Positions 4,701-25,335 of a stretch of 64,000 nucleotides of DNA are shown one piece after another. The translations under genes and the position numbers were made by a program. The notes below the pieces were generated by a model. It was not told the DNA's origin, searched no databases, and saw nothing but the letters and a program-made list of their open reading frames with translations. The first letter of the stretch is position 1; each line of letters opens with the position of its first letter. The stretch comes from Glutamicibacter soli (GTDB taxonomy: Bacteria; Actinomycetota; Actinomycetes; Actinomycetales; Micrococcaceae): contig NZ_POAF01000002.1 in NCBI RefSeq assembly GCF_003309065.1, positions 372,001-436,000 on the forward strand, read 5' to 3'.

Positions 4701-6152
4701 CTACTCGGAGGCCGAGGTGTTCAGCGAGGACTTGAACGCGGCGTCTGCCGAAGAGGTACCCGGACGCTTTTCCAACGTCCATCCCTCGGTGTTGCGCTGC
4801 GGGGCCACGGACAGCGCCAGGGCACCGGCCGGGACATTCTTGCGGACGACTGCACCGGCACCGGTGTAGGCGCCGTCCCCGATTTCAACCGGGGCGACGA
4901 ACACGGTATTCGAGCTGGTGCGCACGTGCGAACCGATCTTGGTCCGGTGCTTCTTTTCGCCGTCGTAGTTGGCGGTGATGTTGCCACAACCGATGTTGGT
5001 GAACTCACCGATTTCAGCATCCCCGGCGTAGCCAAGGTGCGAGAGCTTGGAGCCGCGACCAATGGTCACGTTCTTGGTTTCGTAGAAGGCGCCGATCTTG
5101 CCGTCGGCCCCCAGGTCGGTGCCCGGACGCAGGTAGGCGAATGGACCCACGGACGCGCCGTCGGCGATACGCGAGTCGGTCGCGTCGCTGCGCTTGACTG
5201 TTGCGCCCTGGCCAACCACGACGTTGGTCAAGGTGGTGTCCGGGCCGACCGTCGCATTAGCGCCGATGATGGTTTCGCCGTGCAGCTGGGTTCCCGGCTT
5301 GAGGGTGGCATCCTGGCCGATCATGACCTCGGCGTCGATCCAGGTGGTGGCAGGGTCAACGATGGTGACACCCTGGCGCATCCAGAATTCGTTCTTGCGC
5401 TGGTTGTAGATGCGGGCGAGGTTGGAGACCTGCACGCGGTCGTTGGCGCCCTCGATCTGCCAGCGGTCCTCGATCTGAGAGGAGGCCACGCGGCCGCCGT
5501 GGGAGCGGGCGATGGCCAGCACGTCGGTCAGGTACATTTCGCCCTGCGCGTTGTCGGTGGTGACTTCGGTCAGTGCCGAACGCAACATCTGCGCGTCGAA
5601 GGCGTAGATGCCGGAGTTGATTTCCTTGACTGCCAGTTCTTCAGGCGAGGCGTCCTTCTGCTCGCGGATGCCGGAGACGTCCCCGTTCGCGTCGCGCAGG
5701 ATGCGGCCGTAGCCGGAAGGATCGTCCAGCTCGGTGGTCAGCACGGTTACCGAGTTGCCGTTGGACTCATGGGTGGCGACCAGTTCCTGCAGCACCTCGC
5801 TGGTGAGCAATGGCACATCGCCGTAGGTCACCACGACGGTGCCCTCAAGTTGCGGGTCGATGGCTTCGAGGCCCTGCTGCACTGCGCGGCCGGTGCCCGG
5901 CACGTCGTCCTGGTCCGCGATGGTGATGTTCGGGAACTGGTTCAGGATGTGCTCGGCGACCAGATCGCGCTGGTGGCGGACAACCGCAACGAGGTTCAGG
6001 GGTTCGAGCGCAGAGGCCGCATGCAACGCATGGGAAACCATGGAGCGACCTGCGATTTCATGCATGATTTTCGGCTTCGCCGATTTCATTCGGGTGCCTG
6101 CGCCGGCGGCGAGGACGATAACGGCTACTGGTGCGTTGACCTGATCGCTCAA
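4701..6152 (-). CDS. glmU: Bifunctional N-acetylglucosamine-1-phosphate uridyltransferase / glucosamine-1-phosphate acetyltransferase
   Basis: 483 residues with both halves intact. The N-terminal uridyltransferase has VIVLAAGAGTRMKSAKPKIM; the C-terminal left-handed beta-helix (about residues 260-450) shows hexapeptide repeats and the acetyl-transfer region ITANYDGEKKHRTKIGSHV. It acetylates glucosamine-1-P and couples it to UTP to give UDP-GlcNAc for peptidoglycan. The start is TTG 6152, supported by AGGAG 8 bases upstream. The last 35 residues are an Ala/Ser-rich tail. It precedes prs and follows tRNA-Gln on the same strand. Confidence 0.97.
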   Translation of the reverse strand: MSDQVNAPVAVIVLAAGAGTRMKSAKPKIMHEIAGRSMVSHALHAASALEPLNLVAVVRHQRDLVAEHILNQFPNITIADQDDVPGTGRAVQQGLEAIDPQLEGTVVVTYGDVPLLTSEVLQELVATHESNGNSVTVLTTELDDPSGYGRILRDANGDVSGIREQKDASPEELAVKEINSGIYAFDAQMLRSALTEVTTDNAQGEMYLTDVLAIARSHGGRVASSQIEDRWQIEGANDRVQVSNLARIYNQRKNEFWMRQGVTIVDPATTWIDAEVMIGQDATLKPGTQLHGETIIGANATVGPDTTLTNVVVGQGATVKRSDATDSRIADGASVGPFAYLRPGTDLGADGKIGAFYETKNVTIGRGSKLSHLGYAGDAEIGEFTNIGCGNITANYDGEKKHRTKIGSHVRTSSNTVFVAPVEIGDGAYTGAGAVVRKNVPAGALALSVAPQRNTEGWTLEKRPGTSSADAAFKSSLNTSASE

Positions 6153-6561: not shown

Positions 6562-8352
6562 GTGGCACATTTACTCGGGGGCGAAGCCCTGCATCTGGAA
6601 TATCCAACCCACGTCGTTTTTGACTCGGTGACCATCGGCATTTCCGACGGCGACCGCATCGGACTCGTTGGACGCAACGGCGAAGGAAAGTCCTCGCTGC
6701 TTGGCATGCTCTCGGGCAAGATCGAGCCTAATTCAGGACGCGTGACCCAGCGCAACGGCCTGCGCGTGGGAGTCCTGGACCAGAGCGACACCCTGGACTC
6801 GGACTCGACCATCCATTACGCCGTGGTGGGCGACATGGCCGACCATGAATGGGCCGGCGACGCCCGTACCCGCGACATCATCTCCGGCCTGGTCGCAGAC
6901 CTGGACTGGGAAGCAACAGTGGGCACGCTCTCCGGCGGCCAGCGCCGCCGCGTGGCTTTGGCAGCCCTGCTGGTGCAGGACTGGGACGTTGTGATCCTCG
7001 ACGAGCCGACCAACCACCTGGACGTCGAAGGCATCTCCTGGCTGGCCGAGCACATCAACAACCGCTGGTCCAAGAACTCCGGCGGGCTGATGGTCGTCAC
7101 CCACGACCGCTGGTTCCTCGACGCGGTCTGCACCACCACCTGGGAGGTGCATGACGGCATCGTCGAGCCCTTCGAAGGCGGCTACGCTGCCTACGTGCTG
7201 CAGCGTGTGGAACGCGACCGCATCGCAGCGGTCACCGAATCCAAGCGCCAGAACATGATGAAGAAGGAACTGGCCTGGCTGCGCCGCGGCGCACCGGCCC
7301 GTACCTCCAAGCCGAAGTTCCGCGTCGAGGCCGCCAACCAGCTCATCGCCGACGTACCGCCGGTGCGCAACCCGCTGGAACTCAAGCGCATGGCCACCAG
7401 CCGGTTGGGCAAGGACGTCATCGACCTGCTGGACACCTCGGTATCCTTCGGCCCGAAGCAGATCCTCAAGCCCTTCACCTGGCGCATCGGCCCCGGCGAG
7501 CGCACCGGCCTGCTGGGCGCCAATGGCGCGGGCAAGTCGACCCTGCTGGGCCTGATCGCCGGCACCGTGGAGCCCTCCAGCGGCAAGATCAAGCGCGGCA
7601 AGACCGTGAAGCTGGCAGTGCTGGACCAGCAGTTCCGCGAGCTGGACCAGATCGGCGAGGACCTGGTCCGCGAGGTGCTCGGCCGCTTCCGCACCACCTT
7701 CAACGTGGACGGCAAGGACCTGACCCCTGCCCAGCTGCTTGAACGCCTGGGATTCTCCTCCGCGCATCTGTCCACCAAGGTCCGCGAGCTCTCCGGCGGC
7801 CAGCGCCGCCGACTGCAGCTGCTGATGATCCTTATGGACGAGCCGAATGTCATGATCCTCGATGAGCCGACCAACGACGTCGACACCGACATGCTCGCCG
7901 CATTGGAAGACCTGCTGGACTCCTGGCCGGGCACGCTGATCGTGGTTTCCCACGACCGCTATCTGCTGGAGCGCGTCACCGACCAGCAGTACGCGATCCT
8001 GGACGGGAACTTCCGTCATGTTCCGGGCGGCGTGGACGAATACCTGGCACTGCGCAGCGCCCAGGGTACCGGGTCGGGCTCCAACCCGACCCAGTCATCC
8101 GGCACCGAGCAGGCCAAGCCCGCAGGCCCCAGCGGCGCCGAGCTGCGCGCCGCACAGAAGGAACTGAACGCCAACGAGCGCAAGGTCGGCCAGCTGCAGG
8201 AGAAGATCGCCAAGATCCATGAGAAGATGGCCGGCCATGACCAGTCTGATTACGAGGGGCTGGGCAAACTCACCGCAGAGATCAACGAGCTGCAGGACCA
8301 GGTTGACCAGCTGGAAGAACGCTGGCTGGAACTCTCCGAAATCGTCGGCTGA
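6562..8352 (+). CDS. ABC-F family ATPase (ribosome-associated type)
   Basis: 596 residues with two ABC cassettes and no membrane domain. First cassette: Walker A GRNGEGKSS (about residues 39-47), signature LSGGQRRR, Walker B VVILDEPTNHLD. Second cassette: Walker A GANGAGKST, LSGGQRRRLQ, and VMILDEPTNDVD, where the usual NHLD is replaced by NDVD. A linker of about 80 residues separates them, and a C-terminal coiled coil of about 80 residues (AAQKELNANERKVGQLQEKI) follows a Gly/Ser-rich spacer, as in Uup-like members. ABC-F proteins act on the ribosome, either clearing the E/P site or protecting from antibiotics; no substrate can be read from the sequence. The start is GTG with GGAG close upstream. 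Confidence 0.92.
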   Translation: MAHLLGGEALHLEYPTHVVFDSVTIGISDGDRIGLVGRNGEGKSSLLGMLSGKIEPNSGRVTQRNGLRVGVLDQSDTLDSDSTIHYAVVGDMADHEWAGDARTRDIISGLVADLDWEATVGTLSGGQRRRVALAALLVQDWDVVILDEPTNHLDVEGISWLAEHINNRWSKNSGGLMVVTHDRWFLDAVCTTTWEVHDGIVEPFEGGYAAYVLQRVERDRIAAVTESKRQNMMKKELAWLRRGAPARTSKPKFRVEAANQLIADVPPVRNPLELKRMATSRLGKDVIDLLDTSVSFGPKQILKPFTWRIGPGERTGLLGANGAGKSTLLGLIAGTVEPSSGKIKRGKTVKLAVLDQQFRELDQIGEDLVREVLGRFRTTFNVDGKDLTPAQLLERLGFSSAHLSTKVRELSGGQRRRLQLLMILMDEPNVMILDEPTNDVDTDMLAALEDLLDSWPGTLIVVSHDRYLLERVTDQQYAILDGNFRHVPGGVDEYLALRSAQGTGSGSNPTQSSGTEQAKPAGPSGAELRAAQKELNANERKVGQLQEKIAKIHEKMAGHDQSDYEGLGKLTAEINELQDQVDQLEERWLELSEIVG

Positions 8353-10989: not shown

Positions 10990-11174
10990 TCAATGGCCAA
11001 TGCATTTCCAGCAAATAAGCTACGACATGTTTGTACTGGATCCCATCCCAAACCCACCAACTTTGATATCCGCATAAGGCACCTTCACCGGGCATTTTTG
11101 TGGGCGGGGTATACGGGAATCTGAAATCTTTGGAAACCCGGAGATTCGAAAATATGCCAAGCCAACAAGACTTA

Positions 11175-11204
11175 TGTCCCGAATGAGGACCGGCTTACGG
11201 GACA
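11175..11204. repeat. Island palindrome, copy 1 (best-preserved arms)
   Basis: 30 bp with perfect 7-bp arms TGTCCCG / CGGGACA around a 16-bp centre containing CGGCTTA. It lies 21 bases beyond the stop codon of the kinase gene. Same length, arms and right-half sequence as copy 7 at 18749. Confidence 0.8.
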
Positions 11205-11225
11205 CCTATAGGTGAAAGGTTCCTT

Positions 11226-11720
11226 CTAGCGGGTGGGACGCTGCAAAATACGTTCTACGATTTGCTCGGGAGTTTCATCAGCAACAATTCGCATCTCTGA
11301 AACGAACGGAAGAGGCTGCCATCCGTGGTACCAACCGCGCATATCTTTATCGCTGAATTCAGAGGCTTGCGGCCTCGTCGAATGTCGATTGACAGTTTCT
11401 TCGAAAGCGAGATCGAATGAATAAAATCGGGCATCATCAGTATGCGCGGCCACTCGCTCTAACATACCGCCGTATCTGGAGGCGTTAAAGATCCCCTCTA
11501 GGATTACGTTGTGTCCACGGTTTAAGCAATGTATTGCTGCGATTTCGAGTAGGTCTGCGTGAGCTAAGCTTTCCTGCTCTCGCTCATGGTAAATAACTTT
11601 GCGGAAGTGGTCTTGTTGAAGCACCGCTGTAAGTTTGCCGAGCCTGGTTTGCAACATGCGCGCGATCGTGCTTTTTCCTGAGCCTGAATTTCCGCGAATC
11701 ACTACCAACATTGACGACAC
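11226..11720 (-). CDS. Small P-loop kinase, zeta-toxin/AAA-like
   Basis: 164 residues. Walker A is GNSGSGKST near the N-terminus, and HNVILEGIFNASRYGGMLER supplies the Walker-B-like strand; RFYSFDLAFEETVNRHSTRP and a lid with DKDMRGWYHGW follow. This is the layout of small nucleotide or sugar kinases and of zeta-toxin-like phosphotransferases. I chose the GTG at 11720, since AAGGA lies 6 bases upstream; the ATG two codons earlier touches the Shine-Dalgarno sequence. It is not adjacent to a recognisable antitoxin, so a toxin role is not supported. It is flanked by island palindromes on both sides (11175 and 12070). Confidence 0.75.
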   Translation of the reverse strand: MSSMLVVIRGNSGSGKSTIARMLQTRLGKLTAVLQQDHFRKVIYHEREQESLAHADLLEIAAIHCLNRGHNVILEGIFNASRYGGMLERVAAHTDDARFYSFDLAFEETVNRHSTRPQASEFSDKDMRGWYHGWQPLPFVSEMRIVADETPEQIVERILQRPTR

Positions 11721-11899
11721 ACGCATTCCTTACGATCTAAACATGAACCTGCTCCGCAGCGCTGGACGCAGGCGGTCTCAGTCTAGCTCTGGAGTAGAGA
11801 ACGGCGTCCCACAAAGCGTTCCTCTGCGAACACTGAACCGTGGAGCCTGCCCTCCGCCGAGGTCCAGTAAATACGTCCAGGGAAGTGCAAGTAGACTGA

Positions 11900-11992
11900 C
11901 TAGTCTCGATTTTTCTTCTTCGCGAAGAAGCCCGCGCCAATCAATCCGATTGTCACGATTACGCCGATCATGATGAAGTCGGCACTTTCCAT
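11900..11992 (-). CDS. 30-residue single-pass membrane peptide
   Basis: Minus-strand frame from ATG 11992 to TAG 11900: residues 1-7 MESADFI, then a hydrophobic run MIGVIVTIGLIGAGFF, then a basic AKKKNRD tail. One membrane helix with an acidic N-terminus and a positive C-terminus predicts N-out/C-in topology. AAGGGGG stands 7 bases before the ATG, a strong ribosome binding site, which is the main reason to call it real. It lies between the P-loop kinase and the repeat at 12070. Size and composition resemble type I toxin peptides and other small membrane proteins, but no function can be assigned. Confidence 0.6.
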   Translation of the reverse strand: MESADFIMIGVIVTIGLIGAGFFAKKKNRD

Positions 11993-12069
11993 TTCGTTAC
12001 CCCCTTCGGTTCTCGGACTTCTTGTACTCCAGCTTTGCACAGGGCGGCCATATCAAGGTGAAGCCCCGC

Positions 12070-12170
12070 TGTCCCACTATGCGTTCCGCTTGCGGTCACC
12101 CAATCTCAGTGGAGACGACTTTGGAAAACGACATCAGTGGAGACGACTTTGGAAAACGACAATTGCTCAG
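12070..12170. repeat. Composite repeat A (island palindrome copy 2 plus ACGACTT boxes)
   Basis: Begins with a palindrome copy (12070-12099: TGTCCC arm intact, right arm degraded to GGTCAC, centre GTTCCGCTTGCGG), then CTCAGTG and two ACGACTTTGGAAAACGACA boxes, ending in CTCAG. The same order and nearly the same spacing recur at 15307-15402. Its last bases include the stop codon of the next gene. Confidence 0.75.
12106..12161. repeat. Perfect 28-bp tandem duplication
   Basis: Two identical 28-bp units, 12106-12133 and 12134-12161, each starting TCAGTGGAGACGACTTTGG and ending in AAAACGACA, with no spacer. Confidence 0.95.
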
Positions 12171-12688
12171 CCGGAAATTGCATCAGCCTCTGCAACGGCA
12201 GCTAAAGTTGTATCTTCTACACTCAGCATCACAGTGCTGTCCCGACGGTTGAAGAGGTGCGTAGTGATCGTCCGGCCGTTGGCCTCCCAAATGCAGGGTG
12301 GCGTCTCTTCGTTCTCCCACGGATGTTCTGGTTTTCCAAAGAGTTCGGTGAGTTGGATACGTAGTTCGTTGAATCCGCTTTGAACTGCAGGTGCACCGGA
12401 TTCTTGAGTGCTGTAGAGGTGGATTGTCACGCCTAGGAACTCACAGTTATACGTGTCCCATGAACCAAGCACTTGTCCACCGACGCCGATATCCAGCTCA
12501 TTCATCTGGTGGGGTGATTCTTCGTTCTCTAGCTCGTACCGGCTCCCTGATATGAATCCAAGGTGCGCGAAAAGATTTTCGCGTTCTTCATCAGACCGTG
12601 GCCAAGGCTCGTCGACTAATTTCCTGACGAGCTTCACGACGGTGCCAGGAGTGGGATTCAATTCCAACAAAGGGTCAGTCTCGGACAT
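12167..12688 (-). CDS. Hypothetical acidic cytosolic protein (DUF6301-like, tentative)
   Basis: 173 residues, strongly acidic, no signal or membrane segment. The first third is helical (PGTVVKLVRKLVDEPWPRSD), followed by a beta-rich section with LDIGVGGQVLGSWDTYNCEF, GVTIHLYS, and FNELRIQLTELFGKPEHPW, and ending TITTHLFNRRDSTVMLSVED. The alternating helix and two-stranded pattern with a late LFGKP-W motif reminds me of DUF6301/immunity-type small proteins, but I cannot confirm the family. It lies between palindromes at 12070 and 12732, so it forms one unit of the island array. Confidence 0.6.
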   Translation of the reverse strand: MSETDPLLELNPTPGTVVKLVRKLVDEPWPRSDEERENLFAHLGFISGSRYELENEESPHQMNELDIGVGGQVLGSWDTYNCEFLGVTIHLYSTQESGAPAVQSGFNELRIQLTELFGKPEHPWENEETPPCIWEANGRTITTHLFNRRDSTVMLSVEDTTLAAVAEADAISG

Positions 12689-12731
12689 AGTGTGAGCTTA
12701 CCTCGCAAGAATTGAGACACGGCCGTTAGAG

Positions 12732-12761
12732 GCTCCCCCCTACGGACCGTCTTGCGGGACA
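12732..12761. repeat. Island palindrome, copy 3 (left arm degraded)
   Basis: 30 bp; right arm GGGACA and CTTGC intact, left arm GCTCCC in place of TGTCCC. It starts 44 bases upstream of the 12167-12688 gene. GAGACAC at 12714-12720 beside it also occurs in the copy at 13342. Confidence 0.6.
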
Positions 12762-12821
12762 CGGATAAATTTTCATCGAACTGGCGGTAGCCGGCAGCAT
12801 GTCATCGAAGTTGAAAAGTTT

Positions 12822-13205
12822 TTAGGTTGAAGCTCCGTAGGGAACTACGACGATCTGCACCGAATCTTCGTAGATGATTTTGCCCGGATCGTCGCTGATG
12901 AGTCGCACAGCTTGCACGTCATGCCGTTTAAGAAGTTCCAAATATGGCTCGACCCGTTCTAGCAGATGCGTAGCAGTGCCCTTGAACCAAGCTGCTGCGC
13001 GAGGGTTCACCTGAGGGTCGTAGATATCGGGAATCGATTTGGTCGGATCTGGGTAGGCCGCATTGAACCAGTCATTTCCAGATCTCCAGGTAACCCATTC
13101 TGCATCGCTCAGTTGGCCTTTGTGGGCGAGTACATTGGCAAGACCGAAAACCCTTGGGTATATTGCTCGATGATTTGGAACGCTCGATTGGTACCGGATA
13201 TACAT
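12822..13205 (-). CDS. Hypothetical protein, 127 residues
   Basis: Soluble protein starting MYIRYQSSVPNHRAIYPRVF and containing GLANVLAHKGQLSDAEWVTW, NDWFNAAYPDP and a C-terminal strand EDSVQIVVVPYG. The combination of a mixed N-terminal strand, a WxxWRxxNDWF helix and a hydrophobic C-terminal strand looks like a genuine folded domain, and I have the impression of similar uncharacterised actinobacterial proteins, but no named family can be given. The ORF is intact. It is the next single-gene unit of the island, lying between the palindromes at 12732 and 13342. No ribosome binding site of note was found. Confidence 0.55.
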   Translation of the reverse strand: MYIRYQSSVPNHRAIYPRVFGLANVLAHKGQLSDAEWVTWRSGNDWFNAAYPDPTKSIPDIYDPQVNPRAAAWFKGTATHLLERVEPYLELLKRHDVQAVRLISDDPGKIIYEDSVQIVVVPYGAST

Positions 13206-13341
13206 TTGTTACCGTGGCTCCTTACAATCGCTCACTTTTTCAATTTAGATCGTCCAAGTCAACCATATCGAGCAGCCAAAGCCTTTTTGCAGAGTCTACC
13301 CATGTGAATATTGCGTTAAGAGGCAATAGCCTCAGATCTAC

Positions 13342-13363
13342 TGTCCCGTAGAACGTTGAGACA
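13342..13363. repeat. Island palindrome, shortened copy 4
   Basis: 22 bp: arms TGTCCC and GAGACA (one mismatch) around GTAGAACGTT. The left half matches the family; the right half is 8 bp closer than in the 30-bp copies. Located 25 bases before the gene at 13388. Confidence 0.5.
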
Positions 13364-13387
13364 CATTGGGGAAGAGGGGAATTGAAG

Positions 13388-13714
13388 ATGAGGGAATCCA
13401 AGAAGATGAATCTCGTATTCGAGCGGCTCGAATCGATTCAGTCAATGATGTTTCCCCCGACCCTGTTTGACGGAAAAATTGAGCGCGAACTGAACCTATC
13501 TGATGAATTTGTTGATTCTCGTGTCATTGCCTTCGGGCTCGTTGACGAACTACTCGCCATGGTGGCTGCCAGTCGAACGACGCACGCGGATGTGGTCGCC
13601 CATGGGATGGCAATCGAGTCCGGAACCTACGAGAACGAATACACGAAACTGTCGAAATCGGAATTTGGTCGAGTCGTGATTTATTTGATCGAGTCAGCCA
13701 TACACCTGAGATAG
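13388..13714 (+). CDS. Hypothetical protein, 108 residues
   Basis: Helix-rich, acidic protein. The start is placed at ATG 13388, 7 bases after GAGGGGA; a TTG two codons earlier is less likely. Sequence blocks are FERLESIQSMMFPPTLFDG, ELNLSDEFVDSRVIAFGLVD and EFGRVVIYLIESAIHLR. No motif, signal peptide or membrane helix is evident. It is the only plus-strand gene in this part of the island, and is bracketed by palindromes at 13342 and 13857. I do not recognise the family. Confidence 0.55.
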   Translation: MRESKKMNLVFERLESIQSMMFPPTLFDGKIERELNLSDEFVDSRVIAFGLVDELLAMVAASRTTHADVVAHGMAIESGTYENEYTKLSKSEFGRVVIYLIESAIHLR

Positions 13715-13856
13715 CAGTCGAAAGGTGTTATGCCTACTGCAGATGACTGAGCTTCATGCTTGTTCCGCGCCTATGCGTTGCATCTTCAACTGTCCGGTCG
13801 CAGGGTGTGCGGTCAGCGGCATCGAAGTTGATGGGTTTGCCAGCACCGCAAGACTC

Positions 13857-13886
13857 TGTCCCGTTCAAGGTTGGCCTTGCCGGCGC
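13857..13886. repeat. Island palindrome, copy 5 (right arm degraded)
   Basis: 30 bp: TGTCCCG left arm intact, AAGGTTGGCCTTGC centre matching the family, right arm CCGGCGC. A still weaker TGTCCG...TGCGGTCA match lies about 67 bases upstream. Confidence 0.55.
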
Positions 13887-13993
13887 GATTCGCAGACGAA
13901 GTCGATGACGTGTGGCTATGAGTCGCAGTTCCCAATGTCGGCTTTAGGCGTCAGGTGCGGCTCCAACTAGCCAGTTGGATCTTGCCGCTGGGA

Positions 13994-14983
13994 TTAGCGG
14001 AATGCCCGGCTGATCGCACTGCCAGTCTGGAACAGTGTGATCCACGCGAGGAATTTCTGGATGGGTCGCAACGGCAATGCGACGAGACTCCGCCAACCAT
14101 TGCGTCGAGACCATGACTTAGTGATCTGAACCTGGGTGCCACCGGTCGTGTTCACCAAGGTAAACTCCATCAGAACCGAACTACTTCGGGAAACGTCGGG
14201 ATGCGCGAAGTTCCACGCGATCCTTTCCGGCCGGTGCGCGGAGACGAGTTCAATGCTGCGGCGGCGATACTGCGGCTTTATGTTCACCGGCTTCCCGTCT
14301 GGGTGACTTGCGGGTGCGAGACCCTGCCAGACCCCACCGAGCGTCGCTTCCTGTCCGGTGTGTTCAATGGAGCCGATGCTGGGTTCCCACTCGGGAACGA
14401 GTATCGGATCTGCGAGGAATTCCCAGACCTCTTCCATCGGGGCGGGAACGAATGTCTCCATCGAGCCCGAGGCCCGCCCTTTCACCTTTGCAGCGACAGG
14501 CTTGGTATTCTCAGCTGGTGAGTCGATCTGGTCGAGTTGATTGAGCAGAGCTTCGGGCGTCGTTCCCAGCCGGTCAAGGATCTCTGCGATCAAACCGCTG
14601 GGCTCTGCGACCAGCTCTCGCAATACAGCCGCGGCATCGCCCGTCTTGTTTTTACCACTTGATTTGGTGATGAGGTCAAGAGCGCGAGGACTCCACGCAT
14701 ACCCGTCCGTCTCGTGGAACACGATCCGTCCTGCCTCCGGGAATGAGGCCTCGATGCCGAGCGAAGCAAGTTGCGCTTCGTGTTGTTCCTCGACCGCTCG
14801 ACGGGCGGCATCAAGGTCAATGCCCATGCTGCGAAGTGCGCGTCCGGCGGATTGGTCATTAATAACAAGGGCGAGGAACAGATGCCCAATGCCTGCTTCC
14901 CGAAGGCCAACCCGAGAGGCTTCCTCCATGGCGGCAAGCGAGAGAGATTGACTTGTCTGAGCAGCGCGAACGAGCTTATTCAT
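13994..14983 (-). CDS. Clp N-domain and SRPBCC fusion protein
   Basis: 329 residues. Residues about 10-150 hold two Clp_N-type helical repeats (AAMEEASRVGLREAGIGHLF and a second around YAWSPRALDLITKSSG), the substrate or adaptor-binding module of ClpC/ClpA, without any AAA+ domain. After a short linker, residues about 170-329 form an SRPBCC/polyketide-cyclase-like fold (GSMETFVPAPMEEVWEFLAD, WEPSIGSIEHTG, MEFTLVNTTGGTQVQITKSW). Possible roles are ligand binding or control of Clp proteolysis; this is inference. Its start overlaps the upstream HTH gene by 4 bases (ATGA), so the two are translationally coupled. Confidence 0.8.
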   Translation of the reverse strand: MNKLVRAAQTSQSLSLAAMEEASRVGLREAGIGHLFLALVINDQSAGRALRSMGIDLDAARRAVEEQHEAQLASLGIEASFPEAGRIVFHETDGYAWSPRALDLITKSSGKNKTGDAAAVLRELVAEPSGLIAEILDRLGTTPEALLNQLDQIDSPAENTKPVAAKVKGRASGSMETFVPAPMEEVWEFLADPILVPEWEPSIGSIEHTGQEATLGGVWQGLAPASHPDGKPVNIKPQYRRRSIELVSAHRPERIAWNFAHPDVSRSSSVLMEFTLVNTTGGTQVQITKSWSRRNGWRSLVALPLRPIQKFLAWITLFQTGSAISRAFR

Positions 14984-15225
14984 GCGTTCCTCCTGAGAGT
15001 CGGTATCGTGGGGTCAATTCGTTTGGAGTGCTTCTTGTGAGCGGCTTGCCGTGTCACCCCGAGCGCGTCAGCAATGTCCTGCCAACTCATGCCCGAACGC
15101 AGCGCGGCCTCGACTTGCAGAAGCTCCAGGGTGTCCGCGAGCAAGCGCAACGACGACACCGCCCGCAGCCCCGCTCTCGGGTCGCTGGTGTCGGCTGCCA
15201 CTGCCGCGATTTGTGAAGACTCCAT
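14980..15225 (-). CDS. Small HTH regulator coupled to the Clp_N protein
   Basis: 81 residues. Residues about 44-68 form a helix-turn-helix, GMSWQDIADALGVTRQAAHK followed by KHSKR, similar to sigma-70 region-4/MarR-like HTHs. The N-terminal half is a short helical segment (GLRAVSSLRLLADTLELLQ). Small HTH proteins of this type are commonly found directly before a Clp N-domain gene in actinobacteria, and here the genes overlap by 4 bases, which supports a regulator with its partner. The composite repeat at 15307 begins 81 bases upstream and may overlap its promoter. Confidence 0.8.
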   Translation of the reverse strand: MESSQIAAVAADTSDPRAGLRAVSSLRLLADTLELLQVEAALRSGMSWQDIADALGVTRQAAHKKHSKRIDPTIPTLRRNA

Positions 15226-15306
15226 ACTGTCAACCTACGTTGCTGAAGATCCTCCTGTCAACCAAAGTTGCTAACGACCCCGCGGCTTGCACCTGTCCAG
15301 CCTCAC

Positions 15307-15402
15307 TGTCCCCGTAGAAGGTTCCGCTTGCGGGCGGTGCGGCTCAGTGCTGAGGACTGTGGACAGAAGTGCTGACGACTTCGGAAACTGACACTTAGTC
15401 AG
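15307..15402. repeat. Composite repeat B (island palindrome copy 6 plus ACGACTT box)
   Basis: TGTCCC arm, centre GAAGGTTCCGCTTGCGG, right arm degraded to GGGCGG, then CTCAGTG, a degenerate box (AGGACTGTGGACAGA), and a good box GACGACTTCGGAAACTGACA, ending AGTCAG. Collinear with composite repeat A at 12070-12170 but diverged. Confidence 0.7.
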
Positions 15403-15403
15403 G

Positions 15404-15589
15404 GTGGGTGTTCCCGTATGGGGGGGGTATGTAGTTGGAAATCCAAACCCCCTTGTTCAATTCATTGCCACCAACACGGGATTCTTCTACCTCTTGTCAT
15501 TAGCTTTGCTCTTTGGGAGCGTACTTACTACCCTTTGCTTTCTCCATATCTCGAAGCGTTCCCTGCACTCTCTCGTCGACGCGCGCTAA
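15404..15589 (+). CDS. Possible small membrane protein
   Basis: 61-residue frame from GTG with one clear hydrophobic segment (FFYLLSLALLFGSVLTTLCF) and a basic end. There is no proper ribosome binding site before the GTG and no other start codon before the hydrophobic segment, so this could be chance or a remnant of a larger gene. The rest of 15226-15823 holds only the composite repeat and nothing else I can support. Confidence 0.25.
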   Translation: MGVPVWGGYVVGNPNPLVQFIATNTGFFYLLSLALLFGSVLTTLCFLHISKRSLHSLVDAR

Positions 15590-15823
15590 TTTCCCGCCGC
15601 CTCGGCCGCAGGGCCATTTGTGCAACCGAGGTTGAAGCCTGTCCAACCGTCTACGAAGCTACTCGGTGGGGTTCCTTGCTGGCATACGACTAACAGTGAC
15701 AAATAAAAAAACGACGCACAGGCTGTGGGAGACATTTCTATTCAGAGCAGCTGCTACAGTCTGAGCCAGAACCGTCCTCACCAGGAATTCAACTTTCGAC
15801 CTCCGAAATCGACAGGACTAGCT

Positions 15824-16033
15824 ATGGATTCTCATCAGCGAAAACCCATCAAGTGGTGGCCGTTTGGGCTTTTTCTGCTTGCCTTCGCAGCTGCAAACGT
15901 AGTCCTGATACTGGTCGAGGCTCCCACTTGGGCAAGGCTAATTCCCGTCTGGATCCTGTTGGCCGTTTCGGTAACTGCCCTGACTCTGTTTTTCATTCGA
16001 CGCAGTCGCAATGACAAAGACTCGGGCCGCTAG
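15824..16033 (+). CDS. Small two-helix membrane protein, hypothetical
   Basis: 69 residues from ATG 15824, with AGGA 6 bases upstream. Charged N-terminus MDSHQRKPIKWW, first membrane segment PFGLFLLAFAAANVVLILV, short loop EAPTWARL, second segment IPVWILLAVSVTALTLFFI, then a basic tail RRSRNDKDSGR. This gives a hairpin with both ends in the cytosol. An upstream in-frame extension of 33 codons lacks hydrophobicity or a ribosome binding site and was left out. Function unknown; no domain name can be assigned. Confidence 0.65.
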   Translation: MDSHQRKPIKWWPFGLFLLAFAAANVVLILVEAPTWARLIPVWILLAVSVTALTLFFIRRSRNDKDSGR

Positions 16034-16102
16034 AACCTGTACACGCGCGCGATGGGAATTGAGCACCATGGCAGGGGCTTCAATGCGGGGACAGGTTCAC
16101 CC

Positions 16103-16133
16103 CATCCCTTAACGGCGTTCCCGCTTAGCGTTC
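16103..16133. repeat. Possible ninth, strongly degraded island palindrome
   Basis: CATCCC left arm followed by GGCGTTCCCGCTTAGCG, matching the centre of composite repeats A and B with an extra base; right arm lost. Tentative. Confidence 0.3.
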
Positions 16134-16209
16134 CTCTTATGGACATGAAATCGAACTTTAGAGGTCACCCAGCATCTAAATCTGCCGAATTGGGACAGGG
16201 CTACGAGAT

Positions 16210-16446
16210 CTACCGAGGAAAATCGGTTTCTTCTAAATCGTAGGATTCTCGAAGAGCAATGGACATGAATTCCCAGCCCTGGATGATCGGCAGCAGATCT
16301 GAAGAATCGCGATTCAGCCTACGGAGCTCGCGCTCCTCCCACTGCAACAGCAAGACGTTACGCTCTGCGTAGGAAACTAGCTCAACTACTTTTTCTCTAT
16401 CCAAATGGGGCGGGCTAGGAGGCTCAGGCTGCTGGTCAGTATTCAT
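16210..16446 (-). CDS. Hypothetical protein, 78 residues
   Basis: Short soluble protein: a Pro-rich N-terminus (MNTDQQPEPPSPPHLD), a helix REKVVELVSYAERNVLLLQW with EERELRRLNRD, and an aromatic C-terminal half (IIQGWEFMSIALRESYD). The amphipathic helix pattern is plausible for a real protein, but there is no recognised motif and the ribosome binding site is weak. It lies between the 2-helix membrane protein and the palindrome at 16554. Confidence 0.45.
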   Translation of the reverse strand: MNTDQQPEPPSPPHLDREKVVELVSYAERNVLLLQWEERELRRLNRDSSDLLPIIQGWEFMSIALRESYDLEETDFPR

Positions 16447-16553
16447 AGTTGCCCTTCAATTTTCATGCCGGTAACCGGGTTTCTTTCGACCCAAGCCTCG
16501 GTCGTACCCACAAGGCTACAGCCATTCATGTCCATGCCGTACAAGCACAGTTC

Positions 16554-16583
16554 TCGCCCCATAGAGGGTTGGACTGCGGGACA
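16554..16583. repeat. Island palindrome, copy at 16554 (left arm degraded)
   Basis: 30 bp: right arm GGGACA intact, left arm TCGCCC, centre ATAGAGGGTTGGACTGC aligns without gaps to the copy at 18749. It lies 57 bases beyond the stop codon of the DUF4240 gene. Confidence 0.65.
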
Positions 16584-16639
16584 CGGAAACCGCTATCGGA
16601 CCGGTGAATCAACTGCCCTCCCAGAGCTGTCAACTGCAG

Positions 16640-17983
16640 TCACAATCCTTCAAGCGCACGGATATGCGGGAATCGGGCTTCGAGCCCTCCAATGTACTCA
16701 TCCCAGGGCATCCCAGCCGGGGCCTGCCCTGCCATCGATGCCGAGGGCTGGTCGCGATATTGCTCCTCGATTGAGGTTCCGGTCATCTCCATGAAGATCT
16801 CCTCGGGGATGTATCGAATCTCTTCCGCGTCCATCACCACGGCCGAGTCCTTGAGTTGCCCGTTGCCCAGCAGCGTCGGATCCGCGAGACAGGAGTGGTA
16901 AAAGTCCCGACCCTGCGCCACGACCCAAGTGCGCACGTCGGTGAATTCATCGTCGCCGCATCCACCTAGCAGCAAGTACGCCACACCCCACAGCTCCCAG
17001 GAGTACAAGGCATGGGTCTTGAGGGCGAACAGCCGGTCGAAGGCCACGATCTCTTGCTGGGTGGATTGCCGTAGTTCTTCGCGCAGTGCCTCGGACAGAC
17101 CCTCAGCATCCCCGTCACAGGATTCCCGTGCCCGGCCGATGATGTGCCAGAACCTCTGCTCGGTGATTTCTTCGAGTACAACCGCGGTGGCTTCGATATC
17201 GGCGTCCTGAGCGGAAGAGTCCCCTTCGACAACAGGTCCGCAGTAGCCCTCAAATAGATCCCCAGAGCTTCCCTCAGGGTCTAGGTCGGCAGCCAGTCTT
17301 TCATCAAGACGGACCCGATCAGCCCAATCATCAGGTCGATCGGGCCAAATTTTGTACAACCACAGAAGGTTCCTGCCGTAGCCCCTCACGACGATGCGTT
17401 GGGCTTGAATGTCCCAGAAAGTTTCGGGATCCGGAATTTCGATGTTCTCGAGGACCAGGAGGTTCAGTTCTCCTTGGTCGGAGAAGTGGGCGAGATTGCG
17501 CACCCTCGAAACCTCTGAGAACTCCAGACGTTCAATGCGGCCAAAGGCTCCAGCTCCGGCAAAATCGACCTCTGGACACCTCACTATCCCAACGCGGTCA
17601 GCTTCAAAGTATGGCATGAACCAGGAATCACAGGCCGAGATTCGAGGCCTGACTAACTCAAGCACGCCAGGGGCGTCTTTGTTAGTGAGCTTCCTGTCCA
17701 GCGTCGATAGTGCATCCTGCGTCGCGTTGAAAATCCAGATGTCGTTGATCTGGGGCTGTCGGAGCACCGGGACCCAACATTCATGCCACCGAAAACCAAC
17801 GGCTGTCACCGGGGACCAGTCGTATCCAGCCGGAAGGCTCGTTACCTTTGCGTAAAACACACCCACAGACCACAGCGGTCTTAGCTCGGCCAAGTTCTTT
17901 AAGTCGATGGCGCTGTATCTGTTGTAAATCAGATTCCCGTGGTCAACGGTACTGAGGTAGGAGGCCAGCGTTGATGTTCTCAT
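16640..17983 (-). CDS. DUF4240 domain protein with a large N-terminal region
   Basis: 447 residues. Residues about 290-385 match DUF4240: EQRFWHIIGRARESCDGDAE, then LREELRQSTQQEIVAFDRLF, then WELWGVAYLLLGGCGDDEF and TDVRTWVVAQGRDFYHSCL. The DUF4240 role is unknown; these proteins are often found in polymorphic-toxin or immunity-like settings. The N-terminal 270 residues are unrelated to anything I recognise, but contain a leucine-rich stretch (GRIERLEFSEVSRVRNLAHF, LNLLVLENIEIPD) suggesting repeated strand-turn units. No membrane segment. Standard DUF4240 proteins are about 130-180 residues, so this is a fusion or an extended form. Confidence 0.7.
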   Translation of the reverse strand: MRTSTLASYLSTVDHGNLIYNRYSAIDLKNLAELRPLWSVGVFYAKVTSLPAGYDWSPVTAVGFRWHECWVPVLRQPQINDIWIFNATQDALSTLDRKLTNKDAPGVLELVRPRISACDSWFMPYFEADRVGIVRCPEVDFAGAGAFGRIERLEFSEVSRVRNLAHFSDQGELNLLVLENIEIPDPETFWDIQAQRIVVRGYGRNLLWLYKIWPDRPDDWADRVRLDERLAADLDPEGSSGDLFEGYCGPVVEGDSSAQDADIEATAVVLEEITEQRFWHIIGRARESCDGDAEGLSEALREELRQSTQQEIVAFDRLFALKTHALYSWELWGVAYLLLGGCGDDEFTDVRTWVVAQGRDFYHSCLADPTLLGNGQLKDSAVVMDAEEIRYIPEEIFMEMTGTSIEEQYRDQPSASMAGQAPAGMPWDEYIGGLEARFPHIRALEGL

Positions 17984-18163
17984 TCGGTGGTGTCCTCACG
18001 CGTTCAGGGTCAACTGTCGTTCTAATGTAGACCATGAATAGCGGGTGGGCACCCGAATTTGGCCCTTGGCGCGTAGCCGCAATTGTCCGGTCATCGCCAA
18101 GTCGTGGCTGGGCTCTGCGAATCCGCGGTTGCTCGTTCATATTCGTCCTGCAGAGGGTTCGTC

Positions 18164-18694
18164 TTATGAAACTGATGCTAGCCGCCGGACAAGAATAAGC
18201 GTCGGTCCCGCCCAGTCGAGGTTGTGGTGCTCTTCCAGAGGATAAAAATCGGTAGCTCGGTAAAATGCCCGAGTTTCGGCGTATGACTCGCTATCGAAGG
18301 ACGGACCGACAGTGTGAACGGAGAGCAATGCGCACCCGTCGTTGGCAAGGTCAGCTGCCACCCTATCGATAAGTGCCCGTCCGGCTCCTTTACCTCTAGC
18401 TTCGGGGGACAAAGCGACGAGGTGTAATTCTGCGGACTCGGGGAAGTGTCGACGGATAAGGGCCACGCCAATCGTGGTTCCGGATTGGCGAGCGACGATA
18501 CTCAGATAATCGTCGTTTCCTGCATCTACAACGTACTGTTCGATCGCTTCCGGATCTCCGAACCATTCCGGCAATGCTTTCAAGATGCGGCGGACTGCCT
18601 CGGGGTCTTGCATATATTCAAGCTGAAATGCCAAGCGGTTTATCTTCTCATCCTTATCAATTCTTTGCCACGATGCGAAGTGAACGGCAGGCAC
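18164..18694 (-). CDS. GNAT N-acetyltransferase
   Basis: 176 residues. The cofactor-binding core is VALSPEARGKGAGRALIDRV, an intact R/Q-x-x-G-x-G/A loop, preceded by the strand AELHLVAL and followed by CALLSVHTVGPSF and RAFYRATDFYPLEEH, the usual C-terminal aromatic helix of the superfamily. It should use acetyl-CoA to acylate a small amine; no substrate can be deduced. The palindrome at 18749 lies 55 bases upstream of its start, and the array ends there. Unlike the gene at 9148, it belongs to the shorter Acetyltransf_1 type. Confidence 0.8.
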   Translation of the reverse strand: MPAVHFASWQRIDKDEKINRLAFQLEYMQDPEAVRRILKALPEWFGDPEAIEQYVVDAGNDDYLSIVARQSGTTIGVALIRRHFPESAELHLVALSPEARGKGAGRALIDRVAADLANDGCALLSVHTVGPSFDSESYAETRAFYRATDFYPLEEHHNLDWAGPTLILVRRLASVS

Positions 18695-18748
18695 CTCAAT
18701 CAGGTGTTTTTAGTCCAAAGCGTCGCTCTACGAATAGGCAACTCACGT

Positions 18749-18778
18749 TGTCCCACAGAAGGTTCGGCTTATGGGACA
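18749..18778. repeat. Island palindrome, copy 7 (closest to consensus)
   Basis: 30 bp: perfect arms TGTCCC / GGGACA, centre AGAAGGTTCGGCTTAT. It marks the right edge of the island, between the GNAT gene (18694) and the SDR gene (stop at 18801). Confidence 0.85.
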
Positions 18779-18800
18779 CCAAAAACGACCGCTTTCGCTG

Positions 18801-19481
18801 CTACAACGACACAACGCCGCGCACCCGGTGCCCGATCGCCATCGATTCACCGCTGAGCCCCGCGGCCCGCGGCGAGAGCAGGAAAGCGATCACCTCGGCG
18901 ACCTGCGTCGGCGTAGTATCGCCGAAACCGCCAGGCGCTACCGAGGTCGCCGGATGCTCGCTGACGATTCCCGGGCTTACGGTATTGATGCCGATCCCTG
19001 TCCCCACATGCTCATCGGCCAGGTGCTTCGCAATGGTGATCAGCGCCCCGTTGCGCACCGAACCTGCGATATTTCCGGTCACCAGTGCGTTCTGGCCGGA
19101 GACCCCGACAATCCGTCCGGAGCCGGCTGCCCGCATATGCGGCAGCACCGCGTTGGCCATGCGCAAGAACCCCAGAGCCTTTCCCTGCACCGCTTCCATG
19201 ACACGGGCCGGGTCGGAGTTCCCGGCCGGATCCAGTGTCCTGGCGCTGGGTGCGGCGGCATGCACTAAGCCGTCGATCCGTCCATGCATGTCCATCACCT
19301 GCTGGATGCCAGCCTGCACCGAGTGCTCATCGCTTGCATCCAGCTGCAGGTCCGTGCTGGCAGAACGTGCGGCGCTGATGGCGATCGCTCCCTCGGCCCG
19401 CAGGCAGCGGACCACCGCGGAGCCGATCAGCCCAGTCCCGCCGACAACCAGCACAATTTTTCCATCAAGTTCCAAGTCCAT
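18801..19481 (-). CDS. Short-chain dehydrogenase/reductase-like protein lacking the YxxxK motif
   Basis: 226 residues. The Rossmann nucleotide site is present (VLVVGGTGLIGSAVVRCL), as are the structural LVHAAAPSARTLD (NNAG equivalent) and IVGVSGQNA, which could hold the catalytic serine. The YxxxK motif that should follow is replaced: GSVRNGALITIAKHLADEH aligns the catalytic Tyr with Gly and Lys with Asn. The C-terminus (NTVSPGIV, FLLSPRAAGLSGESM) is SDR-typical. It may bind NAD(P) or an NAD-like ligand without reductase activity, or have a different chemistry. ATG 19481 was chosen; an ATG 7 codons upstream is possible. It is divergent from the PIG-L gene. Confidence 0.8.
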   Translation of the reverse strand: MDLELDGKIVLVVGGTGLIGSAVVRCLRAEGAIAISAARSASTDLQLDASDEHSVQAGIQQVMDMHGRIDGLVHAAAPSARTLDPAGNSDPARVMEAVQGKALGFLRMANAVLPHMRAAGSGRIVGVSGQNALVTGNIAGSVRNGALITIAKHLADEHVGTGIGINTVSPGIVSEHPATSVAPGGFGDTTPTQVAEVIAFLLSPRAAGLSGESMAIGHRVRGVVSL

Positions 19482-24453: not shown

Positions 24454-25335
24454 CTAGGACTCTGGCTTCGGTTCGGCCGGGACCTGCTCGGCGGCGCGGG
24501 CGATTGCGATGAACCCGTCGATATCCAGCTTCTCGCCGCGTTCCTTCGGGTCGATGCCCGCCAACGTGAGGATCTGCTCGGCGCGCATGCCGGACCCTGC
24601 CCAGCCGGAGAGCGCTGCGCGCAGGGTCTTGCGGCGTTGGGCGAAAGCGGCGTCGATGATCGCGAAGACCTGCTTGCGGTCCGGCGCATCGCTGCGGTCC
24701 TTGTCGCGGGTGAACCCGACCAGGCCTGAATGGATCTTGGGGGCCGGCCAGAAGACGTTCATGCCGATGACCCCGGCCTTGCGCATGGTTCCGTACCAGG
24801 CGCCCTTGACCGACGGCACGCCGTAGATCTTGCTGCCCGGGCTCGCGCTCATGCGGTCGGCCACCTCGTCCTGGACCATCACCAGGCCGTGGCGGATCGA
24901 GGGGAAGTGCTCCAGCAGGTGCAGCACCACGGGGACCGCGACGTTGTAGGGGAGGTTTGCCACCAGCGCGGTGGGATCCCCTGGAAGCTCGGTGACCTTC
25001 ATGGCATCCGAGAGGATCACCGTCAGGTCCTTTTCACGGCCCGGACGGAACTCGGCCATGGTCTGCGGAAGGCGCTTGGCCAGCGGCGGATCGATCTCCA
25101 CGGCGACCACCTTGTCGGCGGCGTCCATGATGCCCAGGGTCAGCGAACCGAGCCCCGGCCCGACCTCCAGCACGGTTTCCTCCGGGGAGACGTGGGCGGC
25201 CGCCACGATGCGACGGATGGTGTTCCCATCGATCACGAAGTTCTGGCCCAGGGTCTTGGTGGGCCGGATCCCCAGCTCATCAGCCAGGCGACGGATTTCG
25301 GTGGCCCCAAGCAGCGGCAAAGATTCCTTAGACAT
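24454..25335 (-). CDS. rsmA: 16S rRNA (adenine1518-N6/adenine1519-N6)-dimethyltransferase
   Basis: 293 residues. SAM-binding motif I is [14 protein letters not shown], and the target-adenine catalytic motif is [26 protein letters not shown] marks the N-terminus of the KsgA family. The C-terminal helical domain contains [14 protein letters not shown]. It dimethylates two adenines in the 3'-terminal helix of 16S rRNA during small-subunit maturation. ATG 25335 is used; a GTG one codon earlier is also in frame. It is separated from the upstream rpf gene by a strong terminator, so its promoter must be short or overlap that hairpin. Confidence 0.96.

Follow-up and report, generated by a model that had tools for sequence, protein, structure and literature searches.

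Integrons are thought of as a speciality of tyrosine recombinases. The known small serine recombinases of res systems act by resolving cointegrates or dimers or by inverting segments, and a serine-recombinase crossover site consists of two inverted arms around a central dinucleotide. Two further systems invite comparison: the dif modules of Acinetobacter, which depend on tyrosine recombinases and have dif-like 28-bp sites in alternating orientation, and the staphylococcal cassette chromosome (SCC), a single multi-gene element at one chromosomal site. Here we describe an array of 30-bp palindromes of the form TGTCCC...GGGACA at positions 11175-18778 of a 64,000-nucleotide stretch of Glutamicibacter soli DNA (assembly GCF_003309065.1, contig NZ_POAF01000002.1, positions 372,001 to 436,000), hereafter the window. 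With a probability that we put at roughly 0.77, this island is an integron-like gene-cassette array served by a resolvase-type serine recombinase, with an attI-like platform at its head and attC-like sites between its cassettes.

A first-pass annotation had picked out the palindromes as serine-recombinase-type crossover sites separating the single genes of a cassette array. The array is real and larger than it described, comprising eleven sites of 30 bp, some of them weak. All lie on the + strand, a common orientation that the annotation had not mentioned. The first site (11175-11204, central AC) is the attI-like crossover. It is followed by a degenerate site at 11805-11834 (E = 0.056 with the site model described below), where homology to cassette 1 stops, and by sites at 12070-12099 (central TT), 12732-12761 (central AC), 13342-13371 (weak, left half only, E = 0.12), 13857-13886, 15308-15337 and 16117-16146 (all central TT), 16554-16583 (degenerate), 18144-18173 (central TT) and 18749-18778, the last site. 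Most positions given earlier were confirmed, with 13342 weak; 15307 and 16103 are better read at 15308 and 16117, and the sites at 18144 and 11805 are additional.

The site model, run with filters off, was a profile built from 88 related sites, to which the window contributed six. Ten of its twelve rows in the window at E <= 1 are array sites, all on the + strand (18749, 15311, 11175, 16119, 18145, 13857, 12070, 12734, 11806 and 13342); the remaining two are site 11175 read in reverse and one match at 24581. The model missed the site at 16554, which was called from its consensus score and from the homology of cassette 9, which begins there. Consensus scores also support the sites at 11175 and 18144. 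A weight matrix made from 82 sites, none from the window, recovered seven sites (11175, 12070, 13857, 15308, 16117, 18144 and 18749), all on the + strand and all within the island, and missed those at 11805, 12732, 13342 and 16554. In 30 Markov-simulated windows the same matrix matched 0.10 times on average and never more than once.

Across the 3.84-Mb genome, all eight site-model matches at E <= 1 fell in the window array and on one strand (150 of 1588 first-look candidates were scored). The annotation's statement that no copy lies outside the island therefore holds for this model; it fails at L143 (G000:C18:261636-261768), another and more diverged platform of this contig, where the weight matrix found three weaker sites. 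Among nine genomes of the genus, the site model gave 6-36 matches in six known or expected array holders and 0-1 in three others. A 30-bp pattern allowing up to two mismatches was present in 32 of 395 Micrococcaceae genomes and its reversed control in none. Scanning whole-genome contigs for the pattern gave seven stretches, among which the real arrays are L019 (A. citreus) and L020 (G. ardleyensis) only. L016 and L017 look like chance, and L018, L021 and L022, one similar sequence in three Cellulomonas genomes, were taken as coding. Two viral contigs (L072 and L073) each have one exact match to a gapped site pattern, at the same position.

Being short and intergenic, the palindromes might be a dispersed family of the miniature inverted-repeat transposable element (MITE) or repetitive extragenic palindrome (REP) kind that falls between genes by chance. 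This is very improbable, since the genome's matches are confined to one array and one strand, and the sites mark the ends of exchanged gene-sized blocks and are not themselves inserted pieces. A MITE family or insertion sequence (IS) ends, both raised as alternatives in the annotation, are not supported as the main explanation, although Tn402/Tn5053-like terminal repeats adjoin two of the sites.

Over 97 sites, the layout is one of symmetrical arms, with G14 (97%) and C17 (98%) nearly invariant around a central TT (57 sites), AC (31) or AT (9). Some boundaries are longer. In L010 those at 689-745, 4815-4871, 5695-5751 and 6640-6696 are of 57 bp and consist of two overlapping sites 27 bp apart. 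The 42-bp and 30-bp forms look like internal deletions of the 57-bp form, with lengths read by eye.

The array is headed by a 136-bp platform module (11069-11204, + strand) made up of an imperfect inverted repeat (11069-11118), a spacer containing an imperfect palindrome and, at the end, the first crossover site, whose sequence is unlike that of the other sites. Further inverted CCCGTATA half-sites were seen by eye upstream in the module, which resembles a res region with the attI-like crossover site as its final subsite. The module is conserved at the head of stretches in 13 fetched loci, or 11 positions after merging the orthologous pairs window/G009 and G002/G012. Beyond its first site the 3' sequence differs among the 13 loci, and some of them share genes further upstream. 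A sequence-only model of the module matched genomes in 23 of the 32 Micrococcaceae genera, 224 of 395 in all. When 248 genomes were drawn from the order, it matched 23 at E <= 1e-5; 12 of these belong to other families of the Micrococcales, where the matches were weaker. A phage collection gave no module match. Six modules also have a palindrome near AAAACGACCGTTTT at a distance of 6-20 bp, before the module in L053, L056, L058, L059, L071 and L074 (24 finds in all loci). A AAAACGACCGTTTT-like palindrome also stands directly after the window's last site, at 18782, and it is possible that this palindrome is an element boundary or target.

Comparison with a close relative (G009) showed that the island is replaced between its outer sites. 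The flanks are 91% and 96% identical, and homology breaks off at the final base of the first site (11204), to return at position 18749, where the last site begins. Between these points lie 7.5 kb in the window and 5.9 kb in the relative, of different content save one common cassette at 80% identity. The reading as a cassette array is borne out by this comparison: content differs between close strains from the first to the last site, and homologous cassettes end at sites.

At finer scale, homology switches at or near the site centre. We compared ten hand-picked boundaries of cassettes at least 90% identical (omitted pairs include L148/L181, L054/L055 and the second ends of L009/L058 and L010/L055). 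Within the cassette, half-sites match at 129 of 140 positions, and beyond it at 62 of 140 (81/84 vs 36/84 on one side, 48/56 vs 26/56 on the other), and the central two bases agree at all ten boundaries. The outside halves agree as well as they do because all sites share a consensus. In a broader set of 20 boundaries, kept from 55 by a filter on flank identity, cassettes lying 3' of the site show a clear contrast (85-91% inside vs 42-71% outside, central pair aside). The clearest case is a 98.8% identical cassette common to G002, whose platform has no adjacent recombinase, and G010, whose platform has one. Its flanking sequences are unrelated, and the change falls inside GNNC at positions 14-17 at both ends. 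An AarF-like kinase cassette is likewise common, at 78%, to a Pseudarthrobacter plasmid, where it lies beside recombinase and module, and the A. citreus chromosome. An integron-like exchange at the 3' end of each site was considered and dropped because cassette pairs switch at the centre. Central dinucleotide and left half-site tend to be associated. A serine recombinase that makes 2-nt 3' overhangs would leave the dinucleotide of the left half on the top strand.

Site orientation relative to the module was measured on 35 modules from loci fetched by recombinase or module and not by site, which avoids circularity. At the lowest threshold, 25 downstream sites lay on the same strand as the module and none on the opposite strand, with 0 and 2 upstream. 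Cassette genes showed no orientation bias (30 same, 22 opposite in 52 roughly delimited cassettes; binomial P = 0.33).

Small serine recombinase genes were looked for near other copies and were found beside the module. Of 39 recombinase loci that were fetched, 36 carry all or part of the module no more than 87 bp from where the recombinase gene starts, in most cases 12-36 bp away. Most of the 39 had been chosen for an adjacent module match and 15 (L166-L180) without one being seen; 12 of these 15 do show the module, L178 its last part only. Fifteen plasmid records match part of the module, and eight were opened. In three of the eight (from Kocuria, Pseudarthrobacter and Arthrobacter) a small serine recombinase gene begins 14-16 bp from the module and is directed away from it. 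At E <= 1e-45, 138 of the 395 family genomes encode relatives of the plasmid recombinase protein. This adjacency, together with the switch near the site centre, upholds the annotation's view of the palindromes as serine-recombinase-type crossover sites.

The proteins themselves are of the resolvase/invertase class. PF00239 (Resolvase) was found in all six scanned and PF02796 (HTH_7) above cut-off in five. The exception is the recombinase of the window's own genome, which scored 23.3 bits vs a cut-off of 23.8. The best PDB matches are two DNA-invertase entries and gamma-delta resolvase. In a tree of 35 proteins, 25 module-adjacent recombinases fall within one 30-member group, apart from five other serine recombinases; the tree script detected no module for the five remaining members of the group. 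The annotation had reported no recombinase here, which is correct for the window. A recombinase gene with a module of its own does, however, stand on another contig of this genome (L142, G000:C19:446150-446919); its product is 84% identical to the pA40H2 protein.

A complete small unit is present in G003 (L144, 2034-3790), with recombinase, module, one cassette, one site and a Tn402-like end, between genes read by eye as rpsL and rpoC. Its cassette encodes an enzyme like formylglycine-generating enzyme and is 88.8% identical to a cassette in the G001 array.

The site layout, the sequence switch at the centre and the res-like module led us to propose that the recombinase inserts and excises circular cassettes. 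The 136-bp platform would be the analogue of attI, consisting of accessory inverted repeats plus one 30-bp crossover site, and each cassette would be about one gene with one co-oriented 30-bp site, the attC analogue. A small serine recombinase, which we infer to be the enzyme encoded beside the module, would synapse two sites and exchange strands at their centres. Cassettes would pass through circles that are inserted at the platform or between cassettes, and excision would be the reverse reaction. The window array would be served in trans or would now be an orphan.

Several observations weigh against this account. The first concerns the reach of the arrays. A same-strand downstream site was detected for only 14 of the 35 modules in the orientation test and for none of the other 21, so many modules may simply be sites of resolution. 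In the full set of 64 modules, a good many of which had been fetched by site, downstream sites at threshold 19 numbered 62 on the same vs 10 on the opposite strand (upstream 0 and 2), and those ten do not fit. The pairing with a recombinase is also incomplete. L169, L173 and L180, three of the 15 loci chosen without a module match, have no recognisable module beside the recombinase, and five of the eight opened plasmids have no annotated recombinase beside the module, their gene tables being incomplete. Platforms without a neighbouring recombinase sit at many loci, a spread for which the proposal does not account. At the host's own recombinase locus the first site is of TGTCGC...GGATCC type vs TGTCCC...GACC in the window. 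That recombinase may therefore not act here, and the window array may be orphaned.

The boundary evidence has its own weak points. Part of the flank contrast in the 20-boundary set is built in, because boundaries were filtered on flank identity, and where the cassette lies 5' of the site the contrast is weak (63-91% vs 48-73%). First-site halves compared over all 22 module pairs diverge about equally. The central dinucleotide poses a further difficulty, as serine recombinases normally need matching overlaps. Of 38 first sites, 36 have AC at the centre and 2 have AT, whilst the 97 later sites mostly differ (TT 74, AT 12, AC 8, other 3). One cassette common to G001 and G003 (pair L009/L144) stands after a TT site in one of them and after an AC site in the other. 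Homology switches near positions 14-17, but the overlaps differ, AC in first vs TT in later sites.

Such AC/TT mismatches are easier to picture if a tyrosine recombinase, either an integron integrase or XerC/XerD as with the Acinetobacter dif modules, moves the cassettes on a 12-6-12 or 11-8-11 site and the serine recombinase is an unrelated plasmid resolvase. With a short spacer a tyrosine recombinase would also exchange near the site centre. Phage_integrase genes occur in all 18 genus genomes searched, and two module-bearing loci have tyrosine recombinase genes within about 9 kb, a further point against a serine enzyme: L071 encodes a Phage_integrase protein (18330-19151) about 9 kb downstream of the module, and L075 (1-3449) two annotated integrases 4.6-8 kb upstream. 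We nevertheless regard this explanation as unlikely, since the head module adjoins a serine recombinase. Four array-bearing genomes (G000, G010, G014 and G016) have only two PF00589 matches each, as expected if they encode XerC and XerD alone, and those of the window's genome lie on contigs C24 and C25 and not on C18. In the genus, no listed PF00589 match lies within 20 kb of a listed module. Of the 11 window sites folded as single strands, only 2 did better than 95% of shuffles, and no structure is common to them; recognition of hairpins, as with attC, is not supported. The 88 aligned sites show no GTTRRRY consensus, and no dif consensus was seen. IntegronFinder's authors report no complete integron in Actinobacteria (PMC9024848).

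The window array holds ten cassettes, delimited here from site centre to site centre and all set on the + strand. Cassette 1 (11190-11818) carries a P-loop kinase or zeta-toxin-like gene (11226-11726, - strand; Pfam AAA_33 and Zeta_toxin) and has a homolog over 629 of 629 bp, at 90.1%, in G010 (L055). Cassette 2 (11819-12084) contains a 30-aa open reading frame (ORF; 11900-11992, -) and has an 84.1% homolog in G014 (L058). Cassette 3 (12085-12746; gene 12167-12688, -, DUF6301-like below cut-off) has an 84.6% homolog over positions 79-635 of 662 in G010 (L056), in the stretch 3' of that locus's attI-like site. Cassette 4 (12747-13356; gene 12822-13205, -) has partial homologs in G002 (81.6%), G009 (80.6%) and the recombinase-bearing array of G297 (74.5%). 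Cassette 5 (13357-13871; gene 13388-13714, +) gave no Pfam match and no homolog among the fetched loci. The same loci gave no DNA homolog of cassette 6 (13872-15322), which has a Clp_N and SRPBCC gene (13994-14983, -) and a small helix-turn-helix (HTH) gene (14980-15225, -). For cassette 7 (15323-16131; ORF 15725-16033, +, no Pfam match) only a terminal segment matches elsewhere, and cassette 8 (16132-16568; gene 16210-16446, -) has no Pfam match and no homolog among the fetched loci. Cassette 9 (16569-18158), with a DUF4240 gene (16640-17983, -), has a homolog over 1590 of 1590 bp, at 94.7%, in G014 (L059). Cassette 10 (18159-18763), with a GNAT acetyltransferase gene (18164-18694, -), has homologs in G002 (78.0%) and G012 (70.6%). 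Six of the ten therefore recur in other fetched loci, cassettes 1 and 9 over their full centre-to-centre length and cassettes 2, 3, 4 and 10 partly.

Proteins from 46 of the 52 roughly delimited cassettes were scanned with Pfam. Acetyltransferase PF00583 was found in 11 of the 46, some of which are copies of one cassette, and PADLOC models gave scattered, mostly weak matches on the same proteins. On plasmids L075, L076 and L081 the first gene after the module is annotated as a TIR-domain protein, a type I restriction endonuclease and an effector-associated domain protein, respectively; these are possibly defence cargo.

Two places in the window carry terminal repeats that we take to be Tn402/Tn5053-like ends: two tandem 28-bp repeats beside a site at 12106-12161 and a single one 3' of a site at 15366-15393, both on the - strand. 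An IS21-like identity for the repeats at 12106 and 15366 was dropped, as Tn402/Tn5053-like ends fit better. The repeats lie 35-63 bp from the nearest site centre. Six of the 15 such repeats found in fetched loci are within 120 bp of a site, and three of the six are those of the window. A 71-74 bp segment with one terminal repeat follows sites in several other loci. The window repeats are either insertions by res hunters or ends of transposons that carried arrays. Res hunters are described as using target res sites and their resolvases, and the Tn402/Tn5053 layout is given as tniABQ-res-tniR between 25-bp terminal repeats (PMC7765201). Tn402-like ends also occur near the recombinase start in L169 (at 3072, 92 bp from the gene start, module absent) and L177 (at 2961, only the first part of the module recognised), positions expected if such transposons target resolvase-bound res sites. 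Inspection by eye of the G003 unit's ORFs, down to a length of 140 aa, found no tni gene, though Tn402-like ends seem to flank the unit.

These repeats raise another explanation, in which the module is an ordinary plasmid res site and the arrays grew through Tn402/Tn5053-like res hunters and homologous recombination, the resolvase never moving cassettes. Besides the repeats and the described habit of res hunters, the 21 modules without a detectable same-strand downstream site speak for it. We think it improbable, because cassettes 98-99% identical stand at different loci with their ends at site centres, the imperfect 30-bp sites look too short for homologous recombination, and the sites downstream of modules are co-oriented (25 vs 0).

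If cassette movement by the module-adjacent serine recombinase is correct, the arrays would probably be a second, independently evolved kind of integron, a claim that we hold with somewhat less confidence than the reading of the window island itself. A small serine recombinase would capture cassettes, widely in Micrococcaceae and within a phylum nearly devoid of classical integrons, tolerating unmatched central dinucleotides, with the overlap tending to follow the left half-site. No serine-recombinase cassette array was described in the open-access literature searched, preprints excluded. Array-type gene capture would then have evolved more than once, and part of the accessory-gene turnover in Micrococcaceae would be explained. 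New small recombinases with short sites would become available for genome engineering, and how a serine recombinase joins sites with differing overlaps would become a biochemical question.

Among known systems, SCC elements also have a serine recombinase (Ccr) that moves gene blocks, but the Ccr models are of 442-558 aa and match these proteins over the catalytic part only, far below cut-off. The Acinetobacter dif modules resemble it in placing single-gene modules between short recombinase sites. They differ in that the sites here are co-oriented and preceded by an attI-like head module; no alternation was seen, the window sites being on one strand and the downstream sites of the orientation test 25 vs 0.

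The likeness to integrons is one of function. In both, co-oriented sites follow a fixed head site, and the cassettes, most of them of one gene, are common to distant arrays. Both occur with and without a neighbouring recombinase (the latter as in clusters of attC sites lacking integron-integrases, CALINs), acetyltransferases are frequent among the cassette genes of both, and boundary length varies (30, 42 and 57 bp here). The recombinase is of the tyrosine type in integrons and of the serine type here, and a conserved folded single strand is replaced by an inverted repeat around a central dinucleotide. Exchange takes place in the R box there and at the site centre here, and cassette gene orientation, in contrast to integrons, is mixed. 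Among the PF00589 matches listed for the genus there is no IntI-type gene next to an attI (outside the genus, the tyrosine recombinases of L071 and L075, within 9 kb, are not adjacent), and the sites show neither a common single-strand fold nor conserved R boxes. The head site, co-oriented sites and exchanged single-gene cassettes are a functional analogy and not homology: the array works like an integron but is not one.

By protein and site, the machinery is that of small serine recombinases with res sites (Tn3/gamma-delta, Sin, Gin/Hin and plasmid resolvases). The proteins share the Resolvase and HTH_7 domains, a catalytic domain followed by a C-terminal HTH, at about 190-210 aa. The gene is divergent and stands beside a site region with several inverted repeats, its own multi-part site in 36 of 39 loci with partial modules counted. 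The crossover site is of about 30 bp, with the familiar TGTC...GACA arms. What sets the present arrays apart from res systems is the repetition of the crossover site, which forms a directional series with exchangeable single genes between its members.

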